From a virus, in the IMG/VR virus record IMGVR_UViG_3300017991_000048, positions 1-64,000 of that record: a DNA stretch of 64,000 bases, one strand, 5' to 3'. A program made the position numbers and the translations under genes. Every line of letters starts with the position of its first letter. Position 1 is the first letter of the stretch. Of the stretch, positions 7,343-63,667 are shown piece after piece. The notes under the pieces were generated by a model. The model searched no databases. It saw only the letters and a program-made list of their open reading frames with translations, and had not been told where the DNA came from.

Positions 7343-8217
7343 TACATGCCCAGAACGGCATGTTTTGCCATCTCAATAGATTTCAGCTCTGCCGCATCTA
7401 GCCAGTCCATGTCTACCTTGGCCTGACGTTTATGGCAATGTGGGCATACTTGCTTTCGCCTGGACCTTTGCTTCCCCTCGTATCGAGCGCCACAGTTCCC
7501 GCAGATAAACGGTGCAGCAATCATATATAAGTTCATAGGTGTTCCCTTGTATAAGGCCGCGCTCTCCTCAAACTCGAAAGTATAACCAGGAAAGCCTTCG
7601 GCAGCATACCGGTGCTTGGGTATGTTATCCCAATCAGGTTTACTAAAAAGCCGGTCACTCTTTATCCAAAAGAATGTTCCTGGGTAATGCCATGTGGCCC
7701 GTGGACAACCCGCTGGCGATCCTCCAGTTCGATAGCAGCCTACACACGCATAGGTCTGCAACAGTTTATCAATCTTGTCTGGGTTCTTCAGACACTTGTC
7801 ATACATGGTGTCTCGCCACTGTCTTATAGCGTACCTCTCCAAAGGGTCACTTCGGCTAACACCCTTGCTGTGAGCAAAAAAGAAGGCTTCATCCGGGCTT
7901 GTTGACTCCAGAAGCCTTAAATTCTCATCGAACTCTGAAGCCTCTCTCAGCCCTGGAAATGGATCATTTTTGCGCTCGACAAACTGTACGCCCTCCAGTT
8001 CAGAAAACCAAGGCATGGCTTCATCCGGTGAGTAAACATTCTCCCCCACACGAAGTATAATAATCTTTCTTCCATTGAAAGCCTGCTTATAATGTATGAT
8101 CTTTCTTACGTTCAGGTAGGTCTCCACCGCGCCAGCAGCCCTGGCTTTGAACTTTTCACCCCATGCTGGTGCGGTATCTTTCAACGCACAACAGTCAAAC
8201 AGCAAATGCCTAATCAT
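7342..8217 (-). CDS. Glycosyltransferase-like protein with C-terminal zinc ribbon
   Basis: 291 residues from ATG 8217, which overlaps the upstream stop as ATGA and has GGAGG 6 nt before it. The N-terminal 200 residues resemble proteins of rhamnan/polysaccharide synthesis (FFFAHSKGVSR, then WHYPGTFFWIKSDRLF and an acidic FEFEESAALY), so I read it as a glycosyltransferase-like fold. No DxD is certain. Residues about 220-255 are an added zinc ribbon (CGNCGARYEG...CPHCHK). The combination of a sugar-enzyme-like domain with a zinc ribbon is uncommon. Confidence 0.65.
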   Translation of the reverse strand: MIRHLLFDCCALKDTAPAWGEKFKARAAGAVETYLNVRKIIHYKQAFNGRKIIILRVGENVYSPDEAMPWFSELEGVQFVERKNDPFPGLREASEFDENLRLLESTSPDEAFFFAHSKGVSRSDPLERYAIRQWRDTMYDKCLKNPDKIDKLLQTYACVGCYRTGGSPAGCPRATWHYPGTFFWIKSDRLFSKPDWDNIPKHRYAAEGFPGYTFEFEESAALYKGTPMNLYMIAAPFICGNCGARYEGKQRSRRKQVCPHCHKRQAKVDMDWLDAAELKSIEMAKHAVLGM

Positions 8218-9161
8218 AGTCCCTCCTGTATGGCATCGCGACAATGAGCAATCATCGTTTCTATATGCCTGTCTAACCGCAGTTTATCCTTTTGCCACTC
8301 AGAAGCAATCTTCTCCTGGTCTCCAAATAGCCCAGACAACGCCCTGCCAGAATCAAGATCACGGCACCACACCCTCGATAACATATCGCGATCAGAAAGA
8401 AATCCCTTCATCTTACGGTCTGACGGGAAAACCAGAAATGGCTTTTGTGCTCTATAGGTAAACAATGTAGCATGGAGAGAGCTAGATACAGTCCCAACTA
8501 CTTGTGGGTGTTCAATCAATGCAATCAAATCTCGCGGGTTATCGCTACTAACGACAGGCCACCCAAGATACTCTGATAGCGCCTTCACATATTGGGGTTC
8601 AAAAGACGTGAAGTTTACACATACCTTCTTGATGTCTGGAGTCGCACGATCAATCGCATGAGCCATGCGACGAAACTGCACCGCCTGTCTCCTGTTATAC
8701 ATATCCTGATGGAAGACATGAATTAACAAAATCTTCCCACCCGGCAGATCGGGCACAGTAGCCTGTCCAGGTTTCAAACACAACGACACACAAGGTACGA
8801 CTTCAACATCTGGCCGCGCTTCACGGATTATATCCGCGTCCCACTTAGACCGCACAGTAACATAACGATAATCCCGTAAAAATCCAAGATCACCTGGACT
8901 AGAGTTACACCCACAACCGTTCAGAATATTTCTACCGCTCTGCCGAAAGACTCTATATAACGGAAAGTCTTTTCGTATTAACTGACCACCGCCCACTATA
9001 ATTGTCGATGTCTCTACCTTAGCCACTTCCTCAACTGAATTCGGAAGCACCACATACGGCAGCTTCGCCTCTTCAAGTATTTGAACTAAAGCTAGCCCTA
9101 TGGCCCTATCGCCAAAGTTGGAAGTTGTATTGTCAAAAAGAATCCCGACAGGCTTGATCAT
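8214..9161 (-). CDS. Polysaccharide pyruvyl transferase family protein
   Basis: 315 residues. Features of the PS_pyruv_trans (CsaB/WcaK) family are visible: N-terminal NFGDRAIGLAL, the glycine loop IIVGGGQLI, a central beta-alpha GKILLIHVFHQD and the SSLHATLF histidine segment. Such enzymes transfer pyruvate from PEP onto sugars, or act in sugar exchange on surface polysaccharides. It is the first gene of the glycan cassette in transcription order and overlaps the next gene by 4 bases. Confidence 0.85.
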   Translation of the reverse strand: MIKPVGILFDNTTSNFGDRAIGLALVQILEEAKLPYVVLPNSVEEVAKVETSTIIVGGGQLIRKDFPLYRVFRQSGRNILNGCGCNSSPGDLGFLRDYRYVTVRSKWDADIIREARPDVEVVPCVSLCLKPGQATVPDLPGGKILLIHVFHQDMYNRRQAVQFRRMAHAIDRATPDIKKVCVNFTSFEPQYVKALSEYLGWPVVSSDNPRDLIALIEHPQVVGTVSSSLHATLFTYRAQKPFLVFPSDRKMKGFLSDRDMLSRVWCRDLDSGRALSGLFGDQEKIASEWQKDKLRLDRHIETMIAHCRDAIQEGL

Positions 9162-11374: not shown

Positions 11375-12727
11375 TTATCCGTGTTCAACGGCTTTACCTG
11401 ACACCCGCCAATCAATGCTTTCTGCGGCGTCTCCAGTAACCTGAATATCAATAATCGGACCGCCACCAGGAATATCAAACGTGACGTCCCAAGCAGCGGC
11501 TCCCGCATCCTTATAAGGACCGTTTACAAAATTAACATCTTTGTTAGTCACGGTTGTGGCCCCCGCACCCCTACGGAAAGCCGCCGCAACTTTGAACAAC
11601 GCCACGTCTGACGTATCGTTAGATTGAGCCTCTATCAGAAAGTCAAGGGCTACAATTCGATTGTCAGCCAGAGTGGAGTAAGAATATAATGTGGTAGGTG
11701 TGGCATCTGCGGTACTAATATTGGCATCGATATATGTGGTCCCTGGATACGCCAGTTCCAAAGCAGTCGTAATATCGTAACCATCGTAAGGAGTGACATC
11801 TACAATATCCCCATCAACGATCAGAGTGCCGTCCACGATCAACGGCTCCACATACGGCATCCGGTCATTCTCTTGAACGACCCGCCTGGACCGTGGCGGG
11901 ATATAAGCTATTGAGAAGTTGTCTTCGGTCCTTACCGCTGTAGCATTGCCGTCGATAAAGAGGTTACCGCCATCCCCCACGACAACATTGTTCTCAAACA
12001 ACATGTCCTGTTTTTCAGGGACTGTCTGATCATCAGTAACTTCAGCTAGACTGTAGCCGCCACCGCCCTCGACCTCTACTTGAGTCTTACCTCCTGTATC
12101 AGTGACAGTGACGCCATCCCCCACGAAATTCATGGTGGCTCTTTGGGTTACCGGTACGCCTTCATCCTCAACCAAAGTGTAGCCGCCACCGCCAATGGCC
12201 TCAAAAGTCAGGGCTGTGGTGTTAAGGGTTATTGGAGCCGCTGTAGCCAAAATGAAAATCTGCTTGCCGTTCGCAGTTCCTTCTGGCCCTGTGGTAGTAA
12301 TACAACCGGGATTGACCTGATCTGACGCAGCAAAGTCTTCGCGCCGTTCCAGTATAAAAGGGTTAGCCCCGTCACCGAGTTGAGTGACAGTATAAATGCC
12401 GTTATCCTCGCCAGCCGCCCCGTTCTGTAGAAGAAGGTCATCAGTTAAGGCAGGAGCAACACCGTCAATAGAAGGCAGAGCACCGTTGGCGTTCGCCGTA
12501 ATAACATTATCTACCCGTGTGTAAGCTGGCAGAACCGCATCAGTGGCGAACCGAACAGCGTCATGGTAATCTTCTGGCCCTGAGGCCACCGGATAAATAA
12601 CGCCAAGGTGGTCTTTCCACTTTAAAGCTCCGTCCGCAACGTCCCGAAATAACCGAGCTTTTCCAGCCCCAGTCGCTACCGGAATAGCAGAAGCAAGCTC
12701 ACCTGTAAGTTGGATGTTAGACGCCAT
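11375..12727 (-). CDS. Tail fibre-like structural protein
   Basis: 450 residues. It begins with a variant of the tail motif (ASAIPVATGAGKARLFRDVADGALKWKDH). It has a fibre repeat (DDLLLQNGAAGEDNGIYTVTQL), the VEDEGVPVTQRATMNFVG module shared with the collagen-like gene, and a second Gly-rich linker, then a C-terminal beta domain (about 330-450). No signal peptide or membrane segment. The shared modules show that the genes from 9178 to 13318 form one adhesin/fibre locus built by domain shuffling. Confidence 0.85.
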   Translation of the reverse strand: MASNIQLTGELASAIPVATGAGKARLFRDVADGALKWKDHLGVIYPVASGPEDYHDAVRFATDAVLPAYTRVDNVITANANGALPSIDGVAPALTDDLLLQNGAAGEDNGIYTVTQLGDGANPFILERREDFAASDQVNPGCITTTGPEGTANGKQIFILATAAPITLNTTALTFEAIGGGGYTLVEDEGVPVTQRATMNFVGDGVTVTDTGGKTQVEVEGGGGYSLAEVTDDQTVPEKQDMLFENNVVVGDGGNLFIDGNATAVRTEDNFSIAYIPPRSRRVVQENDRMPYVEPLIVDGTLIVDGDIVDVTPYDGYDITTALELAYPGTTYIDANISTADATPTTLYSYSTLADNRIVALDFLIEAQSNDTSDVALFKVAAAFRRGAGATTVTNKDVNFVNGPYKDAGAAAWDVTFDIPGGGPIIDIQVTGDAAESIDWRVSGKAVEHG

Positions 12728-17599: not shown

Positions 17600-17633
17600 T
17601 TATATATTACACTTCAACTCCACAAAACTCTAG
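17600..17633 (-). promoter_or_regulatory. Leftward class A promoter (antisense or regulatory)
   Basis: On the - strand: CTAGAGTTTT, then GTGGAGTTGAA, then GTGTAATATA. A transcript would run antisense to the genes at 17024 and 16680. No ORF begins after it. Confidence 0.5.
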
Positions 17634-17645
17634 TTTGACTTTTTC

Positions 17646-17680
17646 CTAGAGTTTCCCCGACCTCAAGTGTAATATATAAA
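17646..17680 (+). promoter_or_regulatory. Class A promoter of the GHKL/peptidase gene
   Basis: CTAGAGTTT, 13 nt, TGTAATATA, then AAAAGGACGGCAT before the ATG at 17691. The AAGGA acts as Shine-Dalgarno. Confidence 0.75.
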
Positions 17681-17690
17681 AGGACGGCAT

Positions 17691-19187
17691 ATGAGTAAGA
17701 ACTATCTACCCACCTTCGACGTTTCCAAGAAAGGTCTGGCGAACATACTGGCCAGGAGGGGCGTCGAGTTCATCGTTCTGGAACTGATTCAGAACGCCTT
17801 GGACGAAAACTCATCCAGGGTCGAAGTTGAGTTCATCCCCGTTCCTAATAAAAGAGGACTGTACCGATTGACCGTCGAAGACGACAACCCAGAAGGCTTC
17901 AAAAACATAGCCAACGTCTATACACTGTTTGGAGAATCCCCCAAGGCTTCCGATCCAACCAAGGCTGGACGTTATATGATGGGTGAGAAACTCGTTATTG
18001 CAAACTGCCAAGAGGCATCGGTTCTGACCACCACCGGGCATGTGCTGTTCAATGAAAAGGGCAGGCGTCATGGTCGGAAACGCCGAGACTTCGGATCAAT
18101 CTTCACCGGGACTTTGCGAATGACAAAGGCTCAGGCCGAATGTATCAGGGCTGCGGTAAGTACCGTTATCGTCCGTGAAGATGCCAAGCTGATATTCAAT
18201 GGCATCCAAATGCCATACTGGGAACCTGAGACAACGTTCCAGGGTACATTGACAACCGAAAAGGCTGACGAAGAGGGACGCATTCGCCGCACCAGACGCA
18301 AGACCAACATAGAGGTCTACAATGTTCAGGACGGTGACACCCCCATGCTTTACGAAATAGGACTACCGGTTGTCGAGATTGACTGCCCTTACCATATTAA
18401 TGTCTGCCAGCGAGTGCCTCTCAATGTTGAGAGAGACAATGTTACCCCGGCTTACATGCGTGAGATTCTAACACTTGTCCTGAACGAAATACACCAGGAG
18501 CTTGACGAAGAGGATGCCAAAGCACCCTGGATTGATGAAGCCCTGGAGTCTGGCAACGTAACCAACGAAGCTCTTGGAGATGTGATTACGGCTCGTTATG
18601 GTGACAAGGTTGTCTTGCAAGACCCCAAGGACCGGGAAGCTGAAAAGATTGCCGTATCCAAAGGCTACACAGTTATGCCCAACTCAATGCCGTCTGCCAC
18701 GCGGAAAGCGATAAAAACGTCTGGCCACGTGCTCCCGGCAGGACAAGTGACACCTAGCCCCAAGGCGTGGTCTGACGACCCAAATGCAAGCCCTGCTGAC
18801 TATATTCCTTACGAAAAGTGGTCGCCGGGTATGAAGCGGGTTGCCGTTTATGCGACACGGCTTGCTCGACTGCTGATGGATGTGACCCTGAATGTTTCTT
18901 ATGTCAGGGTGCCCAACAATTTCCAAGCCTGTTATGGAAGAGGCACCCACACAGGTGACCTCACATTCAACCTCCGCTATCAGAAAAAGGCGTGGTTTGA
19001 TGAGGCTTACGATAATATCGAGGAACTGGACAGCCTGCTCATTCACGAGTTCGGGCATCATTACAGCAGCGACCACCTGAGCGGCAGGTATCACAACGCC
19101 CTGTGTGACCTTGGAGCCAAGCTCAAAAAGCTGGCACTGGCCGGTAAGCTCAGGGAGCCGACCAAGAAACTTCAAGTACGGTCGTAG
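17691..19187 (+). CDS. GHKL-type ATPase fused to HEFGHH metallopeptidase-like domain (paralogue 2)
   Basis: 498 residues. The GHKL N-box is LELIQNALDE at about 27-36, followed by VEDDNPEGF and a lid-like GRYMMGEKLV. A middle region (about 190-290) probably corresponds to the transducer domain. Near the C-terminus LLIHEFGHHYSSDHLSGRYHN gives a full HExxH zinc site with a downstream His. Architecture equals that of the gene at 465, so an ATP-driven clamp joined to a protease-like domain is conserved twice in one phage. The substrate is unknown. The last 16 bases overlap the convergent gene at 19172. Confidence 0.87.
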   Translation: MSKNYLPTFDVSKKGLANILARRGVEFIVLELIQNALDENSSRVEVEFIPVPNKRGLYRLTVEDDNPEGFKNIANVYTLFGESPKASDPTKAGRYMMGEKLVIANCQEASVLTTTGHVLFNEKGRRHGRKRRDFGSIFTGTLRMTKAQAECIRAAVSTVIVREDAKLIFNGIQMPYWEPETTFQGTLTTEKADEEGRIRRTRRKTNIEVYNVQDGDTPMLYEIGLPVVEIDCPYHINVCQRVPLNVERDNVTPAYMREILTLVLNEIHQELDEEDAKAPWIDEALESGNVTNEALGDVITARYGDKVVLQDPKDREAEKIAVSKGYTVMPNSMPSATRKAIKTSGHVLPAGQVTPSPKAWSDDPNASPADYIPYEKWSPGMKRVAVYATRLARLLMDVTLNVSYVRVPNNFQACYGRGTHTGDLTFNLRYQKKAWFDEAYDNIEELDSLLIHEFGHHYSSDHLSGRYHNALCDLGAKLKKLALAGKLREPTKKLQVRS

Positions 19188-27609: not shown

Positions 27610-27951
27610 ATGACGACACTATCCAATCTCCAGGATGAATTCACGGTATTTGTTACCCGTGACTTCGGGATGAACACCCACGCGGTCCCGCTCTGTGGCC
27701 TTTGTGGAAATACCGGGATTGTGAAAGCCATCTGGAAACCACCGTGGGCACCCACGGTAGATGCAAAAACCTATGAAATAGAGAGCTATTGCATCTGCTC
27801 AAACGGTCGGACTTTGCGTAAGAAAAACCCTCGCATAGGTCGGAAGTGGGGTGGATCATCGGTTACGAAGACACCTGACGGCTGTACCCTGGACGCGCCA
27901 GTGCCAGAAAAGGAGGGCCGAAGCCTCTGGGACCACGTGAAAGACGAATAA
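27610..27951 (+). CDS. Cys-containing protein with LWDHV tag
   Basis: 113 residues. Two Cys pairs (CGLCGNTG...YCICSNG) suggest a zinc site. The C-terminus KEGRSLWDHVKDE is the genome-specific tag after a charged linker. GTGTAAAAC lies directly before the ATG. Confidence 0.7.
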   Translation: MTTLSNLQDEFTVFVTRDFGMNTHAVPLCGLCGNTGIVKAIWKPPWAPTVDAKTYEIESYCICSNGRTLRKKNPRIGRKWGGSSVTKTPDGCTLDAPVPEKEGRSLWDHVKDE

Positions 27952-36200: not shown

Positions 36201-36884
36201 ATGAGACTAACCCCGCAAAAAATTGTGGCCCGTTATGCGGCATCCCGGCCCAAGCTCTTCCTTTATAAAAGCGCCGATCAAATCGCTGTCAATTTGGGAA
36301 CGGACACAGAAGTTGGCTACTTGTTGCTTGGCCCAGTATCGTCAGTAAAGTCCAAATGCGAGTCTTTGGTAGAAGAGATCCAAAGAGAAGTCTTCGGAAG
36401 TAAGCCTGTACCACTGTGGCACGTAACCGATGTTCAACTGGACCCTGAGTTTCGAGGAAAGGGGTGGGGCCTCAAGATGTACGAGAAAGCCTTACGTGCA
36501 GCCCGTCCCGCAATCATCGTGTCCGGTGACTGTATAGGATATGGAACAACCGTTGTTTCTGACCCGATAATGCCGGGATTCTGTTCTTTGCTGTGCTTCA
36601 CAGCATGGCGGCAGAGTCTCAAAAACACGCATAAAGAACTGTGTCCAGCGGAGTCTAAGATTACTGATGAGTATGGCAGAAAAGCCCGTACTCTAACTTG
36701 CCACCTGCCTAGAGGTCATAAAGGCAGACACGCGGTGGAAATGAGTTGGTACGAAAAAGAGAACGTGATGCGCTCTCACGACATTGTGATTACCTGGGCA
36801 GGCGATGACTTACAAGAGGTCGATAATACCGGAGAGCCTTTGCCAAAAGATAAAGACCTGTGGGACCACCTGAGTGAAGCTTGA
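36201..36884 (+). CDS. GNAT domain / Cys-His domain chimera with LWDHL tag
   Basis: 227 residues. N-terminal motif TPQKIVARYAASRP. GNAT core VTDVQLDPEFRGKGWGLKMYEKALRAA (R-x-K-G-W-G loop). After about residue 125 the acetyltransferase pattern breaks off and a different segment follows (LTCHLPRGHKGRHAVEMSWYEKENVMRSHDIVITW), then EPLPKDKDLWDHLSEA. It carries both a VARYA-type N-motif and the C-terminal tag. The ATG lies three bases after a TTGAT-N3-ATCAA palindrome. Confidence 0.72.
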   Translation: MRLTPQKIVARYAASRPKLFLYKSADQIAVNLGTDTEVGYLLLGPVSSVKSKCESLVEEIQREVFGSKPVPLWHVTDVQLDPEFRGKGWGLKMYEKALRAARPAIIVSGDCIGYGTTVVSDPIMPGFCSLLCFTAWRQSLKNTHKELCPAESKITDEYGRKARTLTCHLPRGHKGRHAVEMSWYEKENVMRSHDIVITWAGDDLQEVDNTGEPLPKDKDLWDHLSEA

Positions 36885-36918: not shown

Positions 36919-37185
36919 ATGGAAACGGCTGAGATATTCGATGTGGTGGAGCGTAACGGTGATATTGTCCTGACCACCGAAAGCCTCAAGCCCGGAGATT
37001 TGGTGCTTCACTGGCCCAGTGGCGAGGTTTATGAGTTTTCTCATTTTTCTCAGAACTCAGCCAAACTTGATGTACGTAAAGACCTTCTGGTGTGCAAGCG
37101 TCCCTACCAAGCCTTTCCGATAAGGGAGATGAGACGGGTTATTTCCTACAAGACCCTCTGGGACCACCTGAGCGAGAGAACTTGA
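36919..37185 (+). CDS. Small beta protein with LWDHL tag
   Basis: 88 residues. A beta barrel-like body (EIFDVVERNGDIVLTTESLKPGDLVLHWPSGEVYEF) followed by RRVISYKTLWDHLSERT. Palindromes lie on both sides (36881-36893 and 37182-37194). Confidence 0.7.
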   Translation: METAEIFDVVERNGDIVLTTESLKPGDLVLHWPSGEVYEFSHFSQNSAKLDVRKDLLVCKRPYQAFPIREMRRVISYKTLWDHLSERT

Positions 37186-37257: not shown

Positions 37258-38118
37258 ATGAGTAACTACGACAGCCCTGTATGGACCACACATGAGGATA
37301 ACAAGCTTACCATCCTTCGTGAAAAAGGTCTTACATTTGAACAAATCGCCAAACGTATGAAAGGTCGGTCCTCTGCCGGGTGTAATACTCGTTATGGAAG
37401 ACTAAAAAGGGCAAAGACAAAACCAAGCGCGAGGGCAAAAAAAGGAAAAGGTGCTCGACCGAAACCATGGACTCCCGCAGAAGACCAACTAATTACTGAA
37501 CTACGTGAGAAGGGCTGGTCTTTCCCGAAAATTTCCATAGAACATAATAAACGGTTCCCAAAAATCCCTCGTTCTACTCCTGGCTGTTGGGCGCGATATG
37601 AAAAGTTGAAAAGAAAGAAAGCAGTGACTAATTCTGCTGCTGTGCTCGATGGGCTGGCTACAAAGGAGGAGCAGCCACAAGTTCAGCCACAAGAGCGGGG
37701 CGGGTTATCTTTTCCGGGGCTAATAGCTAAGGTAATGGGAACAAAAGCCATGGACAATACAGAGATTGTGAAGGCTTTAAAAGCGAGTGGTGAGACACTA
37801 CCTTTAAGTAATAATTTGCCTGGTTATGTCTGTTCGGTCCTCAGCGGTCAAAGAAATCCTGACGGGAGCCGAAAGTTTAAGGCCGTTTCAAGAGGTGTGT
37901 ATCAAGTCGCCCCAAACACTGTCTTTAACAGTGTTCCTCCAAAGCCCAGGCCCAAAAAGAAAAAGGACCACCCTCATGTTCCAAAAAACGGAGCTTGGAA
38001 CATGAGTATAGATTCCGAGACAGGCTCTTTGAAGGTAGTGTTAGATGGCGATTTTTGTACCCAAGAAATTCAGAATAAAATCAAGAAGCTTCTTGGGAGT
38101 ATTGTAGCTGGTCAGTAA
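37258..38118 (+). CDS. Double Myb/SANT-like DNA-binding protein
   Basis: 286 residues. Two Myb-like three-helix units: WTTHEDNKLTILREKGLTFEQIAKRMKGRSSAGCNTRYGRLKR (about 9-51) and WTPAEDQLITELREKGWSFPKISIEHNKRFP...CWARYEKLKRKK (about 70-122). A third helical domain at about 150-220 (LIAKVMGTKAMDNTEIVKALKASGETLPLSNNLPGYVCSVL) ends RGVYQV like HARE-HTH domains. The rest is basic linker and a short C-terminal domain. Likely a transcription regulator, coupled to the next HTH gene. Confidence 0.75.
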   Translation: MSNYDSPVWTTHEDNKLTILREKGLTFEQIAKRMKGRSSAGCNTRYGRLKRAKTKPSARAKKGKGARPKPWTPAEDQLITELREKGWSFPKISIEHNKRFPKIPRSTPGCWARYEKLKRKKAVTNSAAVLDGLATKEEQPQVQPQERGGLSFPGLIAKVMGTKAMDNTEIVKALKASGETLPLSNNLPGYVCSVLSGQRNPDGSRKFKAVSRGVYQVAPNTVFNSVPPKPRPKKKKDHPHVPKNGAWNMSIDSETGSLKVVLDGDFCTQEIQNKIKKLLGSIVAGQ

Positions 38119-39308
38119 TGGCACACATATCTCGAATACGGCGGCAGAAAGAATTAACAGCCCACAAGGAGTTATTCCCCTACTTGCCAATAGAGGATCA
38201 AAGATTGCTCCGCTTTTATCTTCAAGAAAAGTGTAGCCAAGCGAGCCTCGCGGCAAAATTTAATACGCCGCAGTCAACAATACATTACCGTTTAACCAGG
38301 ATAGCCAAGCGCTTAGAGTTTCTGAAGTACTTTCCTATACTTTCCAAAACAGAACTCGAAAAACTATTTCACTCAATCGGAGTAGACTCTAAGACCGTAC
38401 AGATGATGGCGGCGTTGTACTTAACCACAAGTCAAGCCAGTGCTGCTAAAGAAGTTGGCTGCGGCCTAAGTGTAATTGCTTACAACCAACGAAAAACAAT
38501 TGCTTTGCTTCATAAATTAGTGGCAGCGGGAGCGTGGGACTACGAGCCCCTTTTGCGTGGTATGCTCATGATCAAAGACAATTACAAACTTCTGTGTAAG
38601 CCACAAAGAGAGGCCATTCGCAATGTATGGGCGGATAAAACATTAGACCAGATGAAAGACATTATTCTTGAGCACTTTTATGGTACAGGAAATTGGCCTA
38701 GCTCAAAAACCTCTCTAAAATTCAGATCCTTGGCTGAAACGCTTCGTAAATACAGAGGGACTTCATTGTCAAAACTCGTGGAGGAACTTGGTGGCCCTAA
38801 GGCAAGACCAACTATTTTATATGTTGGTCTTTCGCCCGAAAAGCGGAAACTGATTAAATTCTTGCCTAAAACAGAGCAAGATATGATTCGGGCTTATTAT
38901 ATCAAAGGTTTGAAGCAGGAACAGATCAGCCTGAAACATGATATGACACAGGCAGCGGTATCATATCGCTTAAAAACAGCCCATAAACGATTGGAGTTTT
39001 TGCTAAAATTTCCTATTCTGGAAAGGGATGAAATCACGAGAGTCTTGGAGTCAGCCGATTTCTTACCGGAATCTATACAGATATTGATAGCTTTATATGA
39101 GACTACTAGCCAAAGTGCTACTGCTAAGAGACTGGGGGTTTCACAAGGAAAGGTCAGGTGGCATCTCCATAATGCAATAAAGACGCTTGAGCCTCTTGTC
39201 GCTTCCGGTCGGGAAGACCTTAAAGATGTTCTGTTGGGGCTGACAATGGTTCGGGATTGGAGTGGGGCACTTCACTCTTACCCTCATTCAAAATTTAGCC
39301 GGGGCTAA
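38118..39308 (+). CDS. Internally duplicated HTH protein, sigma region 4-like
   Basis: 396 residues made of two copies of a 180-residue unit. Each has LPxEDQxxLRxYYxxxxxQxSLAxxFxxxQxxIHYRLxRIAKRLEFLxxFPIL followed by a second HTH (TTSQASAAKEVG and TTSQSATAKRLGVSQGKVRWHLHNA). The pattern D/EQxxLRxYxxx...SQxxLAxxxxxxQxxVSYRL resembles sigma-70 region 4 / LuxR-type HTHs, four in all. I infer a phage transcription factor, possibly the reader of the palindromes or of the non-canonical promoters nearby. The ATG overlaps the upstream stop. Confidence 0.75.
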   Translation: MAHISRIRRQKELTAHKELFPYLPIEDQRLLRFYLQEKCSQASLAAKFNTPQSTIHYRLTRIAKRLEFLKYFPILSKTELEKLFHSIGVDSKTVQMMAALYLTTSQASAAKEVGCGLSVIAYNQRKTIALLHKLVAAGAWDYEPLLRGMLMIKDNYKLLCKPQREAIRNVWADKTLDQMKDIILEHFYGTGNWPSSKTSLKFRSLAETLRKYRGTSLSKLVEELGGPKARPTILYVGLSPEKRKLIKFLPKTEQDMIRAYYIKGLKQEQISLKHDMTQAAVSYRLKTAHKRLEFLLKFPILERDEITRVLESADFLPESIQILIALYETTSQSATAKRLGVSQGKVRWHLHNAIKTLEPLVASGREDLKDVLLGLTMVRDWSGALHSYPHSKFSRG

Positions 39309-39894: not shown

Positions 39895-40761
39895 ATGTCT
39901 GAGGATACCATACAGAAGAGGCTGGCACAGTATAAGAAGCTGACGGCTGATATAGTCAAGCTCGAAGAGACTATAGTCAAATGCAAACAACTCAAGAGCG
40001 ATGTGGCCAAGGGGTTGCTGGACGAGAACGGCAAGGACAAGCTCTATGACCTGGGAGACGGCATACCCCTCTTCGTCTCAGGCACCAAAGCAGGCACTTG
40101 GTTTTTGGCCCCGCGTAAACGTACCATAGGTAGGAAAAAGAAGAAAAAGGCCGATTCCAAGCCCAAGGAAAAAGGGCCTTCTGAGCCCAAGGCCAAGAAA
40201 GGCAAGACGAAAAAGGTGATCCAGAACGGGCAGGTAGTAGAAGTCCCTGCTGAGAGCCCTGCCAAAAAGGGCCGCGTTATAGAGGCATCTGCGACCCTTA
40301 CCGGAACAGGCGCTATTTCGGCCCCTGAGCCAGACCCTGTTGAGCCGCCTCCCAGTCGGGATCTTCAGGCGGAGCCAGAACCAGTCGAGCCTGTTGAACC
40401 AGAACCTGTTGAACCAGTCGAGCCTGTAGAGGCCGATTCTGCCCCTGTTGAACCAGATCCGGAGCCAGACCCTGTTGAACCTGTTGCCCCAGTGGAACCA
40501 GACCCTGTTGAACCAGAGCCTGCCAAAAAGCCGGTCAAAATTACCCAAGAAATGGTTGATGAAATGAAGGCCCGTGCAGATCAGGGCATAGTGGACGCTG
40601 ATGCCGAAGCCGAAGCTCTCGAAAAGGCCCTACAAGAGGCTGACGAAAGCCCCGATCCAGAGCCCGTTTCTGACGCTACGGAGCAACAGGGCGCTTCTGA
40701 GAGCGATGAAGAGCTTGATCCTCTGGAACAGGCGCTTGCTGAATTGGAGCTTGATTCTTGA
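39895..40761 (+). CDS. Coiled-coil protein with Glu-Pro-Val repeat region
   Basis: 288 residues. N-terminal coiled coil (DTIQKRLAQYKKLTADIVKLEETIVKCKQLK, 4-35), a small domain, a Lys-rich segment (GRKKKKKADSKPKEKG) and about 60 residues of EPVEP/PDPVEP repeats. The C-terminus is an acidic helix (DPLEQALAELELDS). Low-complexity acidic-proline spacers of this type occur in scaffold or anchoring proteins. GGAGG precedes the ATG, and a strong terminator follows 70 bases downstream. Confidence 0.7.
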   Translation: MSEDTIQKRLAQYKKLTADIVKLEETIVKCKQLKSDVAKGLLDENGKDKLYDLGDGIPLFVSGTKAGTWFLAPRKRTIGRKKKKKADSKPKEKGPSEPKAKKGKTKKVIQNGQVVEVPAESPAKKGRVIEASATLTGTGAISAPEPDPVEPPPSRDLQAEPEPVEPVEPEPVEPVEPVEADSAPVEPDPEPDPVEPVAPVEPDPVEPEPAKKPVKITQEMVDEMKARADQGIVDADAEAEALEKALQEADESPDPEPVSDATEQQGASESDEELDPLEQALAELELDS

Positions 40762-40831: not shown

Positions 40832-40870
40832 AAAACCCCCTGGCCGCATAGGAAAGGCCAGGGGGTTTTT
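40832..40870. terminator. Strong bidirectional rho-independent terminator
   Basis: AAAACCCCCTGGCC, loop, GGCCAGGGGGTTTTT. An A-run on one side and a T-run on the other allow it to stop transcription from both directions: the gene at 39895 on + and the predicted small RNA on -. Confidence 0.9.
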
Positions 40871-41086
40871 CTTTGTGGCTGATTGGCTCAAATGGGGTGC
40901 CCCGGCTTCCACGGGGGTCTCCCGGTTCTATCCGGGTGCTTTCCGGGGTGGTGCTGCCAGCGGCCTACTGGCACCTTCTCAGACCGGACGACGCCTTCCA
41001 ATCCGAGCTTTTCCAGCCCGTTCCGTTTCGCTTACGGAGTTAAGCTACATCCCTTTCAACCAACCAACCAACCTTGTCAAAGAACA
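40832..41086 (-). ncRNA. Predicted structured small RNA, about 250 nt
   Basis: A leftward class A promoter (41093-41124) faces a terminator (40832-40870) with no ORF between: the only ATG after the promoter is followed at once by TAG. In the predicted transcript I see successive hairpins: TCCGT/ACGGA, GGGCT/AGCTC with a GGAAA loop, GGTGC-CCAG/CTGG-GCACC, CCCGG/CCGGG, CCCCG/CGGGG, then the terminator. A run of TTGG repeats lies near the 5' end. I cannot match it to a known RNA family. Support is promoter plus structure only. Confidence 0.55.
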
Positions 41087-41092
41087 GTCTAA

Positions 41093-41124
41093 CTGTATTA
41101 CAGTTCAGCTTCGCAAAACTCTAG
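41093..41124 (-). promoter_or_regulatory. Leftward class A promoter of the predicted small RNA
   Basis: On the - strand: CTAGAGTTTT, then GCGAAGCTGAAC, then TGTAATACAG. Contains the GCTGAA spacer block. Confidence 0.7.
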
Positions 41125-41140
41125 AATTTCGAGTCGATTT

Positions 41141-41172
41141 AATAGAGTTTCGGGGCGCTGGTTTGTAATATC
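41141..41172 (+). promoter_or_regulatory. Rightward class A promoter
   Basis: AATAGAGTTT, CGGGGCGCTGGTT, TGTAATAT, followed by ATAGGAGGGA and ATG 41190. Almost identical over 35 bases to the promoter at 41559. Confidence 0.75.
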
Positions 41173-41189: not shown

Positions 41190-41546
41190 ATGAGACACGA
41201 AGGTTCAAGCTGGCTGCAAGACCACGAGACACTGAAGGACGAATATGTGCCCTTCGATCTGATAGACGAGAAGGGGCGTACCGTAGGTGTCCAGATAAGT
41301 ATCGACCGGCACGAGTATGTACCTCACACTGACGAGACCAGGGCTAAGGGTTCGTGGGGCGTAAACCCCGGTGTCTACTACATTGCCAGGGTTCAGCCGA
41401 CCAGAAACACCAAGCGGTTCGGCACACGGAGCGAGAAATGGCTCTCAACCTACGAGCAAGCCGAAGAGCAGGTAAGAAAAGCTACAGCCGCGAGTCGGAA
41501 ACGGTACACAAAGAAGTACGGTGTCCCATGGAACTTCAAGCTCTAA
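41190..41546 (+). CDS. Hypothetical protein
   Basis: 118 residues, not recognised. Alpha/beta (VPFDLIDEKGRTVGVQISIDRHEYVP...GVYYIARVQPTRNTKRFG) with a basic helical end (ATAASRKRYTKKYG). AGGAGG 9 nt before the ATG. Confidence 0.65.
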   Translation: MRHEGSSWLQDHETLKDEYVPFDLIDEKGRTVGVQISIDRHEYVPHTDETRAKGSWGVNPGVYYIARVQPTRNTKRFGTRSEKWLSTYEQAEEQVRKATAASRKRYTKKYGVPWNFKL

Positions 41547-53816: not shown

Positions 53817-54065
53817 ATGCCTGACATGCCTGACAGCGAATCCCTCAGAGCCTTGCAAGCCCTGTTATCAGAATATGACAAAGCGAATGATGAGACTCTG
53901 GAAGCTCTCAAAGCCGGGGATATGGCTAAGTATGAAAAACTCGCTCAAGCGAAAATGAAAGCCATAGGCGAGCTTGGCCCTGAAGCCTTAAGAAATGTTA
54001 TGAGGGAGCATCCCGAATTCAGACCCCAAGGTTATGACCCGGACTCGGAGGATCAAAATGCCTGA
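53817..54065 (+). CDS. Small acidic helical protein
   Basis: 82 residues, helical (SESLRALQALLSEYDKANDETLEALKAGDMAKYEKLAQAKMKAIGELG), ending in an acidic PDSEDQNA. Its last bases overlap the next ATG. Unknown. Confidence 0.65.
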   Translation: MPDMPDSESLRALQALLSEYDKANDETLEALKAGDMAKYEKLAQAKMKAIGELGPEALRNVMREHPEFRPQGYDPDSEDQNA

Positions 54066-54444
54066 GTACGGACCTTCTGAAACCATTGCGGAGTTAAGAT
54101 TCCGGTGTGGTCAGTATCAGGACAGGCTTGATGACCTCCAAATGAGGCTCAATAACATTGAACGTGTCGGCAAAGATTTGGTCCATGAACTCAAAAGTAG
54201 ACGGCCCCGACACCCAGAAGACTCTGAGGAGTATGAGTTAACAGCCGAACTTATGTTTGAAACGGGCCAGCTTCGTGACGGTGTTTGGGATCTCGACCTT
54301 GAAAAGGTTTTGGAGTACCTCGGAGAACGTTACAGATATACAGAGAACCCTTGGTTGATCAAAAGTCAGGTTGACACTGTTTGGGTAAGGTTCCAAGCCG
54401 AACAAACCAAACATTCCAACCTTTGGGATCATTTGAAGGGGTAG
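54058..54444 (+). CDS. Helical-module protein, LWDHL tag
   Basis: 128 residues from ATG 54058 (GGAGG upstream). Coiled coil (ETIAELRFRCGQYQDRLDDLQMRLNNIERVGKDLVHELKSRR), then LMFETGQLRDGVWDLDLEKVLEYLGERYRYTENPWLIKSQVDTVW, and SNLWDHLKG. Closest to the gene at 53219 without its N-terminal module. Confidence 0.75.
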   Translation: MPEYGPSETIAELRFRCGQYQDRLDDLQMRLNNIERVGKDLVHELKSRRPRHPEDSEEYELTAELMFETGQLRDGVWDLDLEKVLEYLGERYRYTENPWLIKSQVDTVWVRFQAEQTKHSNLWDHLKG

Positions 54445-59444: not shown

Positions 59445-60071
59445 ATGCTGATAATCTCAGATTCTGATACGATAAGCCTGCACCCGGTTATAACCCCAAC
59501 GGGCACCATAATTGTATGCAGGACCACTGATCGTGATATTGCTCAGAACGATAAGGGCTGGAGAGTAGTCCGGGTAAACGAGTTTGAAAACCTTGCTCAG
59601 TTAGGTCGGTACAGTACAAAAGAAGAGGCGGTAGAAGTCGGATTGGAGATAACTCGCAACCTAGTCCACACCACCGAGTCGGCCCGAATTGATGAACTTG
59701 AACGCAGGCTATCAGATCGTGATACCCGGCTTGACGCGCTCAATAAACACATAGCTAATTGGGAACGGACTGCCCAGGAACTCGTTAAGAGAATAAGGTC
59801 AAAAAGACAGGTCGTTTTTAGTGATGACCCTCCCCCCGTAAGACGGTCGCAACTCGATGAATTGCAGCGAGAGTGTGAGATCCTGGAAGAGGGCCACGCC
59901 TGGGAACCAATATTCTCTCAGATTACAGATTGGGTGTATAAAGCGTATTGTCAGAACTCATCGGAAGCGTATAGGTACAAGATATTACTCGACAGTATAT
60001 GGGATCAGTACCAAGAAGAATTAGCTAAACGCGGCGAGATATCGACTCTCTGGGATCATTTGAATGATTAG
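59445..60071 (+). CDS. YWRVV-type module plus helical module, LWDHL tag
   Basis: 208 residues. N-terminal module TPTGTIIVCRTTDRDIAQNDKGWRVVRVNEF...GRYSTKEEAVEVGLEI, coiled coil (ARIDELERRLSDRDTRLDALNKHIANWERTAQELVKRIRSKR), helical module (LDELQRECEILEEGHAWEPIFSQITDWVYKAYCQ...YKILLDSIWDQYQ) and STLWDHLND. Confidence 0.75.
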   Translation: MLIISDSDTISLHPVITPTGTIIVCRTTDRDIAQNDKGWRVVRVNEFENLAQLGRYSTKEEAVEVGLEITRNLVHTTESARIDELERRLSDRDTRLDALNKHIANWERTAQELVKRIRSKRQVVFSDDPPPVRRSQLDELQRECEILEEGHAWEPIFSQITDWVYKAYCQNSSEAYRYKILLDSIWDQYQEELAKRGEISTLWDHLND

Positions 60072-63088: not shown

Positions 63089-63667
63089 ATGCCGTCAAAA
63101 AAGACCAAAGTAATAGTTCAAAAGACAGGTTCGACAAGCATTGGCTTTGGCAGCGCCCTGACCCTTATACTCATCACACTCAAGCTGACGGGCCACATTG
63201 ACTGGTCTTGGATTTGGGTTCTGTTTCCGTTTTGGCTCCCTGTAGCAGCCATGATCGGTCTGGCGTTAGGGGCCATTCTGATGGTTGCCCTGTTCGGTAC
63301 TGGCTTCATGGTGGTTGAGTTCTTCACAGAGCGACATGCCAAGAAAAAGCAAGACTCGCATGAACGATTGCATAGACAATTGCATGAGCAAAGACTAGAA
63401 ACCGAGAGGACGGCTCGACAACGGCACCAACGTTCACACGAGCGAAGGCTAGAGTACCCTTTACTCCGTGAAAGGGTACGAGGATTGAGAGCGGCACATG
63501 ATCTAGCCTTGTCTTTTTCTGGCGTTGAAGCTGATCTTGAAGCTGAGGAACAAAGGCTTGAGGCTGAGATACAAGAGCTTGAATCTCGTCTACAGGAAAA
63601 GAGTGACCCGCCAGAGGACAAACCGACAGAACCCGAACAGACTTTATGGGATCACCTGAAGGATTAA
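63089..63667 (+). CDS. Membrane protein with Arg-rich coiled coil and LWDHL tag
   Basis: 192 residues. Two or three spans (FGSALTLILITLKLTGHIDWSWIWVLFPFWLPVAAMIGLALGAILMVALFGTGFMVVEF), like the conserved LKLTGxIDWSWxWVL phage membrane proteins. Then an Arg/His/Gln-rich coiled coil (about 95-130), a Glu-rich coil and PEQTLWDHLKD. The tag sits about 100 residues away from the membrane. Confidence 0.75.
   Translation: MPSKKTKVIVQKTGSTSIGFGSALTLILITLKLTGHIDWSWIWVLFPFWLPVAAMIGLALGAILMVALFGTGFMVVEFFTERHAKKKQDSHERLHRQLHEQRLETERTARQRHQRSHERRLEYPLLRERVRGLRAAHDLALSFSGVEADLEAEEQRLEAEIQELESRLQEKSDPPEDKPTEPEQTLWDHLKD

Follow-up and report, generated by a model that had tools for sequence, protein, structure and literature searches.

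The window analysed here comprises bases 1-64000 (64,000 nucleotides, nt) of a 398,071-bp virus record (IMG/VR: IMGVR_UViG_3300017991_000048), and its source is a giant phage. Between a leftward promoter and a terminator it carries a structured RNA on the minus strand which, judged by sequence comparison, is a real and previously unlisted structured family with two copies in the giant phage and one in a relative. A first-pass annotation of the window had proposed a structured non-coding RNA (ncRNA) unit at this place, and the proposal is supported by the two homologous copies and the conservation of the fold. The unit is probably the gene of a stand-alone, compact ncRNA (~220 nt plus terminator) with a promoter of a phage class, forming a new family and most likely binding protein and acting in trans.

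Three copies of the RNA and their covariation

The family comparison is based on three sequences, namely copy 1 in the window (40868-41088, minus strand), copy 2 in the same 398-kb genome (G000, 83331-83536) and one copy in a related phage (G002, 187652-187858). Relatives of the phage were located via the protein encoded at 17691-19187. The first covariance model was built from copy 1 alone and matched the G002 copy at 187652-187858 with 93.9 bits (E 5.7e-28) and positions 83338-83535 of the same genome with 49.3 bits (E 9e-14), where the E-values derive from a short calibration. All remaining matches of this model had at most 13.4 bits. With the refined model the three copies score 204.5, 188.8 and 131.7 bits and the next best match 11.5 bits. 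Copy 2 lies directly behind a promoter of the same class as that of copy 1 (class A; 83302-83330). Because this promoter had been singled out as a class A site without an evident open reading frame (ORF) before the model was built, copy 2 is independent support for the family.

Pairwise identities among the three copies are 124/194, 110/189 and 90/174 aligned positions. In the three-sequence alignment, 28 out of 71 base pairs show two-sided compensatory changes with pairing kept, and 96.4% of the cells pair. None of 500 shuffles reached any of these measures, and sliding the pairing partner by 1-3 columns gave 0-4 such pairs. The first-pass annotation had named compensatory changes in homologues as a test of its proposal, which thus survived with two homologues. 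Since the model alignment was fitted to the structure, a structure-free MAFFT alignment was also folded; it gives the same architecture except for stems P2 and P3 (Table 1), with 23 two-sided pairs.

Searches with blastn against phages and plasmids returned chance matches alone, and a sequence search of the related records found no homologue of the RNA. Viral and genome collections were also scanned with patterns, the hits being filtered by the covariance model, and yielded no further member. The Rfam search suggested in the first-pass annotation was run with release 15 (4227 models): no family matches the window at the gathering threshold, and all three copies searched with E up to 10 gave matches at chance level alone. 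As no Rfam model matches, we regard the RNA as a new family, though one of a known kind. A possible fourth copy at 94700-94791 (minus strand) was rejected, being located inside a coding gene and carrying the closing-stem motif alone.

Fold, promoter and terminator

The stem P1 joins the 5' and 3' ends of the RNA by 7 bp common to copy 1 and the G002 copy, followed by ~20 bp. P1 holds P2, P7 and P8, P2 holds P3 and P4, and P4 in turn holds P5 and P6. The first-pass annotation described five consecutive hairpins; the count is correct, but the hairpins sit nested in junctions beneath the closing stem. Conserved unpaired motifs are found at the junctions, GGAAAA around P4/P5 and AGA between P7 and P8. 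A search for pseudoknot or kissing-loop complementarity common to the three copies found none.

Table 1. Features of the RNA unit and its surroundings in the window.
Feature	Position	Strand	Details
Structured RNA, 221 nt modelled	40868..41088	-	z -4.4; covariance-model homologues; 28 compensatory pairs
Closing stem P1	40869..41084	-	41084-41078 with 40875-40869 and 41070-41048 with 40899-40876; 8 two-sided pairs, inner part
P2, conserved GCUUAA / AAGC	40938..41045	-	41045-41042 with 40941-40938
P3 hairpin	41022..41038	-	variable: absent in G002, longer in copy 2
P4 stem, encloses P5 and P6; conserved junction GGAAAA	40944..41020	-	4 two-sided pairs
P5 hairpin	40978..41007	-	3 two-sided pairs
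P6 hairpin	40953..40975	-	5 two-sided pairs
P7 hairpin	40921..40936	-	all 5 pairs covary
P8 hairpin	40900..40916	-	weakest support of all helices; 82% of cells pair
Class A phage promoter of the RNA, TAGAGTTT-N13-TGTAATAC	41095..41123	-	1 mismatch to class motif
Divergent class A promoter of gene 41190-41546	41143..41171	+	0 mismatches
Intrinsic terminator, perfect 14-bp inverted repeat, bidirectional by sequence	40832..40869	.	arms 40832-40845/40856-40869, 100% complementary

Compared with dinucleotide shuffles, the minus strand folds unusually well (z -5.3 with the terminator, -4.4 without it), and the plus strand of copy 1 folds ordinarily (z -0.6). The background of 64 other stretches has a mean z of -0.2 (standard deviation 1.2), nearly all being ordinary. 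The one exception is 8001-8221 on the plus strand (z about -6.3, from just 12 shuffles), which lies on the strand opposite coding genes. The unconstrained minimum-energy fold of copy 2 is the same structure as that of copy 1 (z -4.55). That of the G002 copy retains P1, P6 and P7 (z -3.55), and constraining it to the consensus gives an energy within 0.5 kcal/mol of its own minimum. Compensatory changes would also fit a structure that works at the DNA level, such as a single strand folded at an origin or a packaging site. This is highly improbable, since the unusually good fold is confined to the minus strand under RNA parameters, pointing to G-U pairs, and a correctly oriented promoter lies 5' of every copy.

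The absence of coding potential noted in the first-pass annotation was confirmed: the ~220 nt between promoter and terminator of copy 1 hold no conserved reading frame. On the minus strand there is no usable frame, as the sole ATG is directly followed by TAG, and the longest ORF wholly within the unit has 37 amino acids (aa). For plus-strand ORFs spanning copy 1 the search of phages gave no match, and neither of the other copies keeps the equivalent frame intact. One antisense frame is alike between copy 1 and the G002 copy (39%) and was rejected as coding on account of two stops in G002; the antisense frames of copy 2 also contain stops. Coding on either strand was rejected, as no frame is kept across the copies.

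Read from 41123 to 41095 on the minus strand, the promoter sequence is TAGAGTTTTGCGAAGCTGAACTGTAATAC, one mismatch from the class A motif TAGAGTTT-N13-TGTAATAT. With up to two mismatches allowed, the 398,071-bp record holds 25 sites of this motif and a single one of the reversed pattern, and the leftward class A promoter described in the first-pass annotation stands. Nearly all class A sites examined lie directly 5' of an ORF. The leftward site at copy 1 has no ORF behind it, and the promoter of copy 2 is the only other one without an evident gene. The G002 copy is preceded by a similar promoter, TTAGGTT-N13-TGTAA. Transcription of the RNA is predicted to start at ~41088. The rightward promoter had been placed 17 bases away and the unit called carefully placed; the promoter boxes are 19 bases apart (41123 versus 41143), and the spacing is not special because a similar back-to-back class A pair is found in the window at 17604-17632 (minus) and 17647-17675 (plus). 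The terminator, described as strong, does have a perfect inverted repeat, but the word slightly overstates it, the minus-strand U-run being just UUUU. The better T-run is on the plus strand, and the terminator is also located 3' of the plus-strand gene 39895-40761.

In many class A promoters the -10 box is followed within a few nt by an ATG (window 43025(-), 45691(-) and 14093(+); L040 1133(+)), and therefore such messenger RNAs (mRNAs) would be leaderless or nearly so. The genes flanking the RNA have no Pfam family, except for the upstream Myb-like and sigma-70-region-4-like proteins at 37258-39308, which are candidates for class A promoter recognition. The sigma-70 region-4-like protein is encoded at 38118-39308 (plus strand), beside the Myb-like one.

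Genomic context and possible role of the RNA

The genes flanking copy 1 adjoin each other in the nearest relative, G002, with a 236-bp gap that holds no such RNA. Downstream of copy 1 there is no same-strand gene, the nearest one to the left being encoded on the opposite strand. Copy 2 has no same-strand gene close behind it and leads into the end of a convergently oriented gene. Both copy 2 and the G002 copy are upstream of and point at the same conserved convergent gene (G000 84080-85498; G002 190546-191862), and so they are probably positional orthologues, with copy 1 as an additional copy. Contrary to this, the sequence of the G002 copy is more similar to copy 1 than to copy 2.

The features by which an independent structured ncRNA is generally recognised were found here: its own promoter and terminator (the terminator for copy 1 alone), no ORF and a covarying fold. 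Action in trans is suggested because two out of three copies have no downstream gene. Binding of a protein is favoured because a long stem secures both ends, few unpaired stretches have the length needed for base-pairing with targets, and the conserved unpaired motifs sit at junctions. The RNA would thus be transcribed from ~41088 and then act in trans, where it may bind protein either as the core of a ribonucleoprotein or by serving as a decoy for an RNA-binding protein of host or phage. More tentatively, it may represent a new class of RNA machine that acts in trans in giant phages and carries out a step of infection; its conserved branched core would bind a protein of the phage or the host, or would bind to itself, and two diverged copies are kept in one genome. 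Profiles of PF07282 (TnpB/Cas12f-type guide RNA) and RVT_1 (retron) had no match in G000 or G002, with controls matched and other nuclease families not sought.

Several points weigh against a protein-binding, trans-acting ncRNA. Its transcription is a prediction from sequence elements, and its protein partner is hypothetical, with binding suggested by the structure. The model-made alignment is biased towards the structure it was built on, and with three sequences alone P8 and any tertiary contacts are uncertain. A terminator was looked for behind copy 2 and none was found. Furthermore, a plausible 101-aa ORF has its ATG 4 nt behind the G002 copy, an arrangement expected of a cis-acting leader. 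A riboswitch-like, cis-regulatory leader of the downstream gene draws on this G002 copy alone, and we consider it distinctly unlikely: in the window a terminator follows the RNA, copy 2 heads into a convergent gene end, and no homologue of the G002 ORF was found in the G000 genome.

A stand-alone unit with promoter and terminator and short conserved unpaired stretches (ACAAG, GGAAAA) would also suit a trans-acting antisense small RNA that regulates mRNAs via base-pairing. This is unlikely, as the unpaired stretches of copy 1 have at most ~10 nt and both of its ends take part in pairing. Across 118 kb of phage sequence, the longest stretch complementary to copy 1 has 17 nt and lies on the non-coding strand of gene 11375-12727, and the others have at most 13 nt, so that there is no convincing phage target. 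The mRNA of gene 11375-12727 is not a pairing target because it shares the 17-nt sequence. This identity, GGGCTGGAAAAGCTCGG, is between 12653-12669 and 41003-41019 (both minus strand), linking the most conserved junction of the RNA and the coding strand near the start of the gene.

The packaging RNA of phi29 (pRNA or prohead RNA) is a short RNA encoded by a phage, with base-paired ends and with junctions, and the new RNA shares these features. Unlike pRNA, it has no Rfam match and a different branching, and its three copies have in common no complementary loops such as ring assembly would need. An assembly or packaging RNA with a role like that of pRNA, or an RNA-only oligomer like ROOL or GOLLD, would be consistent with the long end-closing stem, the many junctions, the phage origin and the lack of an evident partner protein, as well as with the P6 loop AGGCC, which is conserved in two copies and holds a GGCC palindrome. 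We regard this as very unlikely, since the P6 loop is not conserved in copy 2, the copies share no loop-loop or pseudoknot complementarity, Rfam gave no match and the RNA is far smaller than ROOL and GOLLD. ROOL and GOLLD are ornate phage-encoded RNAs that often lie close to tRNA genes and whose function is unknown, and many GOLLD members exceed 800 nt (PMC12286853). Like them, the new RNA is phage-encoded and elaborately multi-branched, and transfer RNA (tRNA) genes lie ~9 kb from copy 2 in the same genome; unlike them, it has ~220 nt (221 nt plus terminator) and no covariance-model match. The tRNA cluster is small and includes one predicted tRNA whose anticodon has four bases (tccg; L040 8617-8693, genome 92617-92693, plus strand). 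ARAGORN found no tRNA or transfer-messenger RNA in the window.

For the giant phage PhiKZ, a Grad-seq study gives two ncRNA candidates, the first of which has ~100 nt and two stem-loops and is likely processed from a 3' untranslated region (PMC8545117). The new RNA, too, is an ncRNA of a giant phage, and it differs from the first candidate by its independent promoter and large junction fold.

Other observations and significance

Besides the RNA, a C-terminal peptide (T/N/D)LWDHL(K/R/S)(E/D) is shared by ~45-50 ORFs of the first 105 kb, most of them short and with no other relationship to each other. Examples on the plus strand of the window are 27610-27951, 36201-36884, 36919-37185, 54034-54444, 59445-60071 and 63089-63667, and the peptide is also present in L039 and L041, two stretches of the same genome. 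Some are found in G002 and none in the stretches of more distant relatives. The peptide resembles a tag for sorting, packaging or assembly; our literature search found no paper naming it.

Structured phage RNAs with their own promoters are few and mostly unexplained, and the new RNA adds a strongly covarying case from three copies. It is small enough for structure determination and genetics. A covariance model from one unannotated sequence can reveal a family that is missed by plain sequence search, and the calibrated model is now usable for searching other giant-phage genomes.
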